Source: Cupriavidus sp. EM10
GTDB lineage: Bacteria; Pseudomonadota; Gammaproteobacteria; Burkholderiales; Burkholderiaceae
Length of the DNA: 64,000 nucleotides
Assembly (NCBI RefSeq): GCF_018729255.1
Contig: NZ_CP076061.1
Coordinates: forward strand, 1,364,001 to 1,428,000
Direction of reading: 5' to 3'
This document shows positions 58,730 through 64,000 of the stretch, one piece after another (position 1 is the stretch's first letter; the number at the start of each line of letters is the position of its first letter). The notes under the pieces were generated by a model, which was not told the origin of the DNA, made no database searches, and saw only the letters and a program-made list of their open reading frames with translations. Position numbers and translations under genes: made by a program.

Positions 58730-59611
58730 CTAGGCGATCAGCTGGTCGGGCTGGCTGGTGGGCGCCGCTGCCGCGCGCACGCGGCGGACGCCGGCTTCCA
58801 CCTCTGCGTGGGCCGCGTCGAGCCAGTCGATACGATGCCGTACCGGATCGTTGGGCGAAAGGTCTCGCTCGCTGATCTCCCGCAGGAAGTAGCGCACCAT
58901 GCTGCCAGCCCGCGCCGGCACCGGCATCATGCCGAGCAACTGGTCGCGCTTGAGCATCCCCTGGGTGGCCGCCTGCAGCAAGGCGGCCCAGGCCGTACGA
59001 CCCAGCGCGACATACAGGGCGTCGGGCGGGCATTGCCGCAGGGCTGCCAGGAACAGGTTATCGAACACCATGCGCAACATGGGGGCTCCCAGCAGGTCAT
59101 CGAGCGTGCCGTCGAAAGCCAGGCCGCGCCGCGTGGTGGCATGGGGCAGCAGGGCGAGCGGCTGGATGGCCTGGAATCCCTCGTGCCAGAGCGCGGCGGC
59201 GTGGGGCTGGCCGATCAGTTCGGGAATCCGGAAGTGATCAAGCATCCGTATCAGGTTAGGCCGGACCATGCGGCCGCCCAGCTCCACCTGTCGCTTGTGC
59301 TCGCGCTGGATCACGCGCCCGGGCGTGTGCGCGCGCAGCAGTTCGTCGGTCACCGTAGCCGCCAGCTGCACGTGTGAATGGCCCGGCGTCGTGCTGACCA
59401 GCACCAGCCTCGCGTTCTCGTTCCGATGCTCGAACGGAACGTACTTCATGACATAGGTCCCGTCCTGATCCACAACGACTGGCTTTTCCGCGATCCCGCG
59501 AATGCCGCCCCTGCGGATCCGCGCGCAATACTCTTCTAGGTAGTTCGCCAAGATGTCCCCGCTCCCGATGCTTCCCTGAATTGAGCAACCGACGTTCTTT
59601 TTTGGGTCCAT
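58730..59611 (-). CDS. Hypothetical protein, possible uracil-DNA-glycosylase-like fold
   Basis: A 293-residue soluble protein; start ATG opens MDPKKNVGCSIQGSIGSGDI. I do not recognise a family firmly. Two stretches recall the uracil-DNA-glycosylase-like superfamily: ENARLVLVSTTPGHSHVQLA (a beta strand ending in a G/P-rich loop) and QCPPDALYVALGRTAWAALL (a late strand ending ALGxTA). Charged helices surround them. This resemblance is weak. The 5' region contains a terminator and, further up, a Fur-box promoter, so the gene may be under iron control by read-through. Confidence 0.6.
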   Translation of the reverse strand: MDPKKNVGCSIQGSIGSGDILANYLEEYCARIRRGGIRGIAEKPVVVDQDGTYVMKYVPFEHRNENARLVLVSTTPGHSHVQLAATVTDELLRAHTPGRVIQREHKRQVELGGRMVRPNLIRMLDHFRIPELIGQPHAAALWHEGFQAIQPLALLPHATTRRGLAFDGTLDDLLGAPMLRMVFDNLFLAALRQCPPDALYVALGRTAWAALLQAATQGMLKRDQLLGMMPVPARAGSMVRYFLREISERDLSPNDPVRHRIDWLDAAHAEVEAGVRRVRAAAAPTSQPDQLIA

Positions 59612-59768
59612 GTTAAGCCCCGATGAAGGACCGAGAAAGCGCGTATGTGATCAATGCGTTTCATGGATGCGCCGACTTCGTGGGCCATCGAACAAACGCG
59701 GAGGGGCAGGAAGAAGACGAACTGCCAGGCGGGAGGCAGTCAAAAACGGTAGACGGAGGAACTGGGTG

Positions 59769-59796
59769 AAAAAAGGCCGGACACAAGCGTGTCCGG
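59769..59796 (-). terminator. Rho-independent terminator, minus strand
   Basis: On the minus strand CCGGACAC and GTGTCCGG pair perfectly around GCTT, followed by CC and six T (plus-strand A-run 59769-59774). It lies about 90 bases past the osmC stop and 40 bases past a Fur-box promoter. Confidence 0.92.
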
Positions 59797-59835
59797 TAAC
59801 CCATTTGCTGACTCAGGTCGTGTCAAAACCCGAGA
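59769..59835 (-). ncRNA. Candidate Fur-regulated small RNA, about 67 nt
   Basis: A strong minus-strand promoter covered by a perfect Fur palindrome (59836-59870) predicts a transcript start near 59835, and a rho-independent terminator ends at 59769. No open frame of useful length fits between them. The layout matches iron-responsive sRNAs such as RyhB, PrrF and NrrF, although I see no sequence match to them. The alternative is that the terminator belongs to osmC or is an attenuator for the downstream gene. Confidence 0.5.
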
Positions 59836-59870
59836 GCACAAATGATAACCATTATCATTTGTGCGGTCAA
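59836..59870 (-). promoter_or_regulatory. Fur box on a sigma-70 promoter
   Basis: GCACAAATGATAA (59836-59848) and TTATCATTTGTGC (59852-59864) form a perfect 13-bp-arm palindrome whose core matches the Fur consensus (GATAATGATAATCATTATC). On the minus strand, TTGACC (59870-59865) and TATCAT (59847-59842) are separated by exactly 17 bases, each matching five of six consensus bases. Bound Fur would block both elements. Confidence 0.85.
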
Positions 59871-59884
59871 TCGCAAAGTTGCGG

Positions 59885-60274
59885 TCAGCCGGCCAGCGTG
59901 GTGTCGATCGTGATCTGCGCGCTCAGTGACTTGTGCACCGGGCACTTGTTGGCCACGCGCAGAAGATCCTCGCGCACGTTCGGCGCCAGCTCGCCGCGCA
60001 ATGCAATATGCCGGATCAGCTTGTAGGATCCCGGCGTCTCTTCATGCGCCACGCTTACCTCGATCTCCTGAAGATCGTAACCCTTGCGCTTGGCGTAGAT
60101 CTGCAGCGTCAGGGTGGTGCAGGCGGCCAGGGCGGAATCCAGCAGATCGTGAGGGTTTGGAATCGACGGGTTGCCCATCGGCGCATCGAGGTCGGCCTGC
60201 CATTGCGCGGTGCCGTTGCCGAGGTCACAGACGCTGGAGCCGGAGCCGGCCAGCCATTTGGCTTGAATTGTCAT
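59885..60274 (-). CDS. OsmC/Ohr-family peroxiredoxin-like protein
   Basis: A 129-residue thiol peroxidase-like protein that detoxifies organic hydroperoxides. The two family cysteines are visible in DSALAACTTLTLQIYAKRKG and RVANKCPVHKSLS. It opens MTIQAKWLAGSGSSVCDLG, and NPHDLLDSALAACTTLTL is diagnostic for OsmC. It lies between a Fur-controlled promoter region and the rRNA operon, divergent from the latter. Confidence 0.9.
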   Translation of the reverse strand: MTIQAKWLAGSGSSVCDLGNGTAQWQADLDAPMGNPSIPNPHDLLDSALAACTTLTLQIYAKRKGYDLQEIEVSVAHEETPGSYKLIRHIALRGELAPNVREDLLRVANKCPVHKSLSAQITIDTTLAG

Positions 60275-60861: not shown

Positions 60862-62391
<1,530 letters not shown>

Positions 62392-62453
62392 CAGAGGCTT
62401 GTGTTCACAAGTCAAGCGTTCACACTTATCGGTTTGTTTGCTGTTACAGCCAA

Positions 62454-62530
62454 GGGTCTGTAGCTCAGGTGGTTAGAGCACCGTCTTGATAAGGCGGGGG
62501 TCGTAGGTTCAAGTCCTACCAGACCCACCA
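62454..62530 (+). tRNA. tRNA-Ile (GAT)
   Basis: A 77-base tRNA with acceptor GGGTCTG pairing CAGACCC, anticodon GAT in CTTGATAAG, T-loop TTCAAGT and encoded CCA. It is in its standard place in the 16S-23S spacer. Confidence 0.96.
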
Positions 62531-62542
62531 AGCTTATCGTGC

Positions 62543-62617
62543 GGGGATTAGCTCAGCTGGGAGAGCACCTGCTTTGCAAGCAGGGGGTCGTCGGTTCGAT
62601 CCCGTCATCCTCCACCA
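62543..62617 (+). tRNA. tRNA-Ala (TGC), one acceptor base apparently missing
   Basis: A spacer tRNA with anticodon TGC in CTTTGCAAG, D-arm GCTCAGCTGGGAGAGC, T-loop TTCGATC and encoded CCA. As read the acceptor begins with four G (62543-62546), only 75 bases in total. The 3' strand ATCCTCC needs five G on the 5' side to pair all seven positions, including the G3-U70 pair that marks tRNA-Ala. One G seems lost from the run. Confidence 0.93.
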
Positions 62618-62708
62618 CTTACCTTGGGGTTGTAGCTAAAGAAAAGCGCTCGCACGAGTGTTTCTCTTTGGCTGTTGCCATCGAGCGCGAATGCAATTCG
62701 CCTCGGCT

Positions 62709-62718
62709 GTTCTTTAAC
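62709..62718 (+). promoter_or_regulatory. boxA in the 16S-23S spacer
   Basis: GTTCTTTAAC followed by AATATG, a second copy of the leader boxA, upstream of the 23S gene. The rest of the 62618-62908 spacer shows processing-stem sequence but no gene. Confidence 0.7.
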
Positions 62719-62908
62719 AATATGGGATGTAGTAAAGGTGTCGCGAGGCGTTGATGAGACGCTGCAGTACAAGCGCGATACCGGGTTGTGATTGTATCAA
62801 CCAAATGTATTTAAGTGATCGAAAGATGACTTGGAATACGGCACAAACGCGAGAACTCAGACCTGTAGCCAGAGGGTAGGACGGAAACGTTAGACTCACT
62901 CGTTATAG

Positions 62909-64000
<1,092 letters not shown>

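Follow-up and report, generated by a model that had tools for sequence, protein, structure and literature searches.

Results and discussion

A small RNA locus between osmC and a 293-aa gene

The locus studied here is situated on the minus strand, flanked by an OsmC-like gene and a gene encoding 293 aa, within a window of 64 kb (the whole stretch of DNA that was analysed). It comprises the following features:

59885..60274, minus strand: upstream gene, OsmC-like protein of 129 aa (PF02566, E 2.8e-15)
59865..59870, minus strand: –35 hexamer TTGACC (promoter scan; TTG at least 90% in alignment A2)
59836..59864, unstranded: Fur-box palindrome GCACAAATGATAA-TGG-TTATCATTTGTGC (complementary arms; best match to TGATAATNATTATCA in the genome)
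59842..59847, minus strand: –10 hexamer TATCAT, inside the Fur box (promoter scan)
59834, minus strand: presumed transcription start, placed by homology (aligned with the TSS published for C. metallidurans CH34)
59769..59834, minus strand: small RNA of 66 nt (CH34-based start, terminator, 25-sequence alignment, model matches)
59812..59834, minus strand: 5′ stem-loop CUCGGG / CCUGAG (98.7% of cells pair, 25 sequences)
59798..59811, minus strand: linker UCAGCAAAUGGGUU of 14 nt, presumed pairing region (conservation; mostly unpaired in folds)
59777..59796, minus strand: terminator stem-loop CCGGACAC-GCUU-GUGUCCGG (terminator scan; 99.0% of cells pair)
59769..59774, minus strand: T6 tract (sequence; CC stands between the terminator stem-loop and T6)
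58730..59611, minus strand: downstream gene, 293 aa (ORF; no Pfam or NCBIfam match)

The two arms of the palindrome (59836–59848 and 59852–59864) are 13 nt long, 100% complementary and separated by a gap of 3 nt, and the palindrome spans most of the promoter spacer plus the –10 hexamer. These coordinates agree with the original prediction of a palindrome with 13-bp arms over the spacer and –10 of a minus-strand promoter (TTGACC-N17-TATCAT). Its terminator (8-bp stem, T6), placed about 67 bases from the start, was likewise recovered and ends 66 nt from 59834. Scanning the window for promoters yielded two hits compared with 0.6 ± 0.8 in shuffled sequences, while a terminator scan gave five compared with 2.7 ± 2.0. 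Taken alone, both scans barely exceeded the shuffles; the evidence that carries the locus is its Fur site together with its conservation. An rRNA operon (16S, two tRNAs, and a 23S gene cut by the end of the window) occupies 60862–64000 on the other strand, about 1 kb from the small RNA; related loci were often located near contig ends, as expected from assemblies broken at rRNA.

The genome's best match to the Fur motif overlaps the promoter

To score the operator we used the 7-1-7 motif of Fur, which we take to be TGATAATNATTATCA. The window contained a single match at up to three mismatches, having one mismatch, where 0.21 were expected. At least one match of this quality also turned up in 20 of 100 window shuffles, so that the count in the window alone is weak evidence. 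Across the 6.66-Mb genome, eight sites matched the motif with at most two mismatches, and the site at the small RNA was the only one with a single mismatch. Two of the seven next-best sites were situated beside genes for TonB-dependent receptors and a third beside a PepSY membrane gene, which are the kind of genes under Fur control. No such neighbour was evident in the ORF list for the remaining four, on one of which Pfam was run. The box was also retained in the 25 loci aligned below, with one mismatch in 15 of them, two in five, three in four and four in one. A predicted Fur operator thus overlaps the promoter, as in the class of Fur-repressed small RNAs.

Conservation and distribution of the unit

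A 120-nt query was searched in 60 genomes, of which 28 matched, one of another genus. In three genomes (G006, G028 and G048) the match was confined to the terminator or the Fur box; these were dropped, leaving 25 full units for alignment. The aligned sequences shared the order CUCGGG-loop-CCUGAG, UCAGCAAAUGGGUU, and CCGGACAC-loop-GUGUCCGG followed by a U tract, with small variations and RNA lengths of 64–69 nt across the 25 genomes. In the 23 loci that share their neighbouring genes, the majority identity, averaged in steps of 10 nt, was 1.00 and 0.97 in the linker. It dropped to 0.35 immediately before the promoter and to 0.41, 0.33, 0.15 and 0.30 in the steps that follow the T tract; towards the downstream gene it recovered to 0.59–0.87. 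The linker, positioned between two hairpins, was the most conserved part of the RNA, being identical in 24 of the 25 sequences and differing by two bases in L023.

A covariance model was then searched in 398 genomes of the family, namely 59 listed genomes of the same genus and 339 others. Matches with E ≤ 1.1e-10 (the E-values being rough) were obtained in 41 of the 59 listed congeners, 25 of which had built the model and 16 of which were outside it; three more congeners gave weak matches (G006, G020, G202) and 15 gave none. None of the 339 genomes from outside the genus that were searched produced a strong match. Matches at E 8e-4 to 0.1 in 31 of them were about the number expected by chance and were not counted as relatives. 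An exact pattern, which misses diverged copies, retrieved 24 stretches from the GTDB species collection, 22 of them titled Cupriavidus; the other two belonged to 'Ralstonia sp. 25mfcol4.1' and 'Burkholderiaceae bacterium 16'. The copy in G006 has decayed: osmC and the downstream gene are kept and the terminator hairpin is recognisable, while the Fur box is gone (seven mismatches at best) and the linker is changed, so that both decayed together. The original prediction had made its case depend on conservation in other Cupriavidus genomes, and many of these do carry the unit; its weakness or absence in 18 of the 59 listed congeners counts against the proposed RNA. To judge from these sequences, conservation places the predicted promoter–RNA–terminator unit far beyond chance.

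The 5′ end corresponds to an unnamed start in C. metallidurans CH34

In 2020, tagRNA-seq of C. metallidurans CH34 under copper revealed an orphan TSS on the minus strand of the chromid at nt 147,562, which was reported without a name, was differentially expressed with copper and for which 3′ RACE pointed to roughly 450 nt (PMC7563307, in the part of the paper at hand). That part of the paper contains no link of this start to Fur or iron that we saw, nor a conservation analysis. The RNA of the window matched the CH34 chromid NC_007974.2 (2,580,084 b, a size likewise stated for CHR2 in the available part of PMC2864759) at 147498–147587 on the minus strand. Base 147,562 corresponds to the initial C of CUCGGG and lies 8 nt beyond TATCAT; its equivalent in the window is 59834. 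The unnamed start known from copper exposure (PMC7563307) thus belongs to the same gene, its TSS base being the first base of the small RNA. Accordingly, the RNA has its own promoter with a mapped primary 5′ end, the mapping having been performed in another strain than that of the window. The original prediction knew of no named small RNA at this place; no name was found in the open-licence literature either, but the 5′ end had been published. Beyond this CH34 start, the open-licence literature yielded no description of the RNA, nor of any stand-alone Fur-controlled small RNA for Cupriavidus, and the terms 'sRNA' and 'small RNA' do not occur in the main text of a transcriptome study of CH34 with EDTA and metals (PMC11647585).

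A length of about 450 nt is at odds with an RNA of 65 nt. At face value, it would carry the CH34 transcript past the terminator and approximately 155–175 nt into the downstream gene, the frame of which begins at +275 (ATG) or +294 (TTG) from the TSS. The figure may stand for the main 3′ end, for a minority of read-through transcripts or for the size of an amplicon. An intrinsic terminator is present and conserved, yet the 3′ RACE result indicates that read-through beyond it is possible in CH34. One outcome that the original prediction had named as refuting, a transcript reading through into 59611, is partly present.

Stand-alone gene or leader of the downstream gene

The long CH34 transcript bears on an alternative reading, according to which the RNA is a Fur-controlled, attenuated leader of the 293-aa gene that would start at 59834, mostly stop at the terminator and read through conditionally. 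Such a leader would explain a transcript that passes the start of the gene's frame (PMC7563307, part at hand), as well as the gene order: among 37 genomes compared, the RNA was flanked by osmC and the downstream gene in 32, with the gene on the same strand behind the RNA. Furthermore, two blocks between RNA and gene (59716–59707 and 59696–59677, approximately GTCATCnTCCTG and TGTTSGnTGGCCCACnAA) showed 0.86–0.89 identity in the 23 loci, which leaves room for a leader role. However, the remaining five genomes (G021, G023, G345, G387 and G419) carry the unit with neither osmC nor the downstream gene detected within about 1.5 kb. In C. basilensis KF708 (G021), for instance, the RNA is located between an MFS transporter and a same-strand OPT-like transporter, the latter scoring below its NCBIfam cut-off. 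By eye, none of the five relocated copies is followed by the two blocks, so they travel with the gene rather than with the RNA. As the unit persists without gene and blocks, the latter seem to form part of the region upstream of the gene itself and probably belong to its promoter or leader. Conservation is, moreover, poor in the 40 nt that follow the T tract, and the terminator is kept. We regard the leader as an unlikely explanation. A small RNA gene of its own, putatively under Fur control, is well supported at the level of sequence by the genome's best Fur-motif match, the conserved unit, the CH34 TSS and the persistence without the usual neighbours.

Near the relocated copy in 'Burkholderiaceae bacterium 16' (L033), an ORF at 2420–2959 resembles, by eye, a group II intron reverse transcriptase; it sits between the small RNA and an OPT-like transporter.

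Predicted fold and linker

The 68-nt sequence 59769–59836 folded with –25.9 kcal/mol compared with –16.7 ± 2.5 kcal/mol in 200 shuffles (z –3.6), that is, better than all 200 of them. Over the 25 sequences, 98.9% of the stem cells could pair, a value that fell to at most 43% when the structure was slid. Covariation was thin because the stems hardly vary, and the terminator stem-loop contained one pair with changes on both sides. The percentage of paired cells and the covariation score beat all but one of 500 shuffles, and the number of stem cells with changes on both sides beat all but three. Two of the five covariation measures failed to beat the shuffles: the number of pairs changed on both sides was reached by 242 of the 500 and the number of pair types by 220. 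RNAalifold, applied to alignment A1, proposed an alternative helix in the 5′ half. This helix arises because A1 shifts some sequences by one position; alignment A2 aligns them and pairs CUCGGG with CCUGAG in the great majority of cells (98.7%), and the alternative was set aside. The covariance model (R1) derives from the structure of A1, and its 5′ helix thus differs from the favoured one.

The linker had a mean unpaired probability of 0.69 over 25 folds. When folded singly, L005 and L023 adopted other structures, and a small hairpin formed in the linker of L016, L017 and L020. In the 5′ loop (59828–59818), the GACAC of the terminator 5′ arm is repeated and could pair with the terminator 3′ arm; it stays where the terminator changes (L020, L021), and L024 and L025 read GACAA.

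The linker contains an AUG in 24 of the 25 sequences, raising the question of a small protein. Indeed, a frame of 47 aa runs from this AUG through the terminator (59661–59804), at variance with the wording of the original prediction that no protein fits. The frame enters the terminator, however, and the number of nucleotides immediately behind GGUU ranges from 1 to 3 across the 25 sequences, which shifts the frame, so that it is not kept. We thus judge it highly improbable that the AUG starts a protein.

Relation to known iron-linked small RNAs

RyhB, PrrF and NrrF share a layout in which a Fur box at the promoter is followed by a short RNA and a rho-independent terminator. The Cupriavidus RNA resembles these RNAs of E. 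coli, Pseudomonas and Neisseria in layout; no sequence relation to them was detected, as no Rfam family reached its gathering cut-off. PrrF (RF00444) scored 16 bits against a cut-off of 90 over 59824–59870, mainly the Fur box. The weak matches to SNORD82 (twice), PrrF and SECIS_3 were all far below cut-off and were rejected.

A closer candidate in taxonomic terms is BrrF, an iron-linked small RNA of the same bacterial family (Burkholderiaceae), so that our RNA might be conceived as its Cupriavidus form, both being Fur-linked. In Burkholderia cenocepacia, BrrF is processed from the 3′ UTR of the hemP transcript and has no Fur box directly before it (PMC7377471, part at hand), whereas the Cupriavidus RNA possesses a promoter and a Fur box of its own and is not located behind hemP. 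The BrrF core GACTTTTGTGGGGACC was found behind hemP in G000 (L095, contig C1), 42 nt past the end of the hemP match and on another contig than the small RNA; by eye, the linker and stems of the latter show no sequence similarity to this core. Because both RNAs are present in G000, an identity of the two is refuted, with hardly any residual chance of being correct. Of the 12 Cupriavidus genomes looked at, nine (G000 included) contained the BrrF core, which was not found within 700 nt of hemP in G001, G005 and G007. The two RNAs also occur separately: G005 has the Cupriavidus RNA without the BrrF core in that range, G006 has BrrF and the decayed copy, and G001 and G007 show neither.

Proposed mode of action

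The locus as a whole is probably best explained as a stand-alone, Fur-switched gene for a trans-acting regulatory RNA of 66 nt. Iron-loaded Fur would bind the palindrome over the –10 hexamer and block RNA polymerase; when iron is short, Fur would leave and the RNA would be made from 59834. It would fold into a 5′ stem-loop, the open 14-nt linker and the terminator hairpin. Its action would most likely be in trans, the linker and perhaps also the 5′ loop pairing with mRNAs, probably with Hfq bound to the U tail. Taken at the level of sequence, the small RNA is real and specific to Cupriavidus, and it is very probably under Fur control. It would thus be a probable regulator for iron shortage in this genus.

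Metal resistance, hydrogen use and bioplastic production are studied in Cupriavidus as a model, and each of them relies on iron enzymes. The published CH34 start would gain a likely repressor and a boundary, together with a structure and a conserved region for pairing. Somewhat more tentatively, Cupriavidus may possess two unrelated iron-linked small RNAs of opposite build, namely BrrF, derived from the hemP message, and a genus-specific, free-standing, Fur-switched cassette that has held or changed its seat. The linker of the latter would act as a seed for a separate set of targets and might connect copper stress with iron control. We consider this picture possible, though somewhat less likely than not.

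Candidate targets

Linker duplexes were calculated against 62 translation starts from nine gene sets (sodB, sod2, sdhC, two leuC-like, acnA, two bfr-like and dps), with gene labels and start codons assigned by us. A tenth set of five acnB-like loci, whose starts could not be fixed, was left out. Only two of the 62 duplexes, both with sodB, reached a shuffle p ≤ 0.05, where three were expected. Mean z values were –0.96 for sodB and for one bfr set, and +0.36 for sdhC. Pairing with these nine iron-related gene sets was no more than chance. A search for the complement of the linker 14-mer at up to two mismatches gave 200 matches in 10 genomes, the small RNA genes included. We examined 39 of them (20 listed matches and the 19 of G000, one of which was the small RNA gene itself), and the majority were located within genes or antisense to them. 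Among these 39 matches from the 10 genomes, no leader site proved to be conserved. One CH34 site (L110), a complement with one mismatch, precedes an ORF by about 150 nt in sense orientation; the 39 matches showed it in no second genome. The complement was commoner than a reversed control pattern in all 10 genomes, an excess that we would attribute to codon usage. Given their narrow scope, these tests would overlook most real targets.

For the original prediction of a Fur-repressed, iron-sparing RNA, this means that the Fur-controlled small RNA is well supported by sequence, whereas nothing found here supports the iron-sparing part, on which the pairing tests remained at chance level. An iron-sparing role would be plausible. 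Alternatively, the RNA could act in trans with a different main role, e.g. in copper or oxidative stress, Fur being one input among others, a reading that overlaps with the stand-alone Fur-switched RNA preferred here. It would agree with the selection of the CH34 start as differentially expressed with copper (PMC7563307, part at hand), the expression change known for this RNA being one with copper and not with iron. The pairing of sodB, sdhC, acnA, leuC-like, bfr-like and dps sequences, overall no better than in shuffles, points in the same direction. Against this, the Fur box is the only operator recognised. Copper, moreover, disturbs iron homeostasis, so that a copper effect fits Fur control as well. 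On balance, a main role other than iron sparing seems possible but rather doubtful. What silences iron enzymes in iron-poor Cupriavidus has become a directly testable question.

Two apparent hits, L117 and L118, were rejected as targets since the sdhC leader reads in the same sense as the small RNA and is not its complement. Several sdhC leaders (L133, L134 and L136–L141; e.g. L139 of G000) carry GCAAATGGGG or a close variant just before the start codon, and the corresponding sequence in G004 and G009 is ACAGCAAATGGGGT. This element has the sense of the linker and is not complementary to it, a likeness that may be due either to chance or to a shared binding site.
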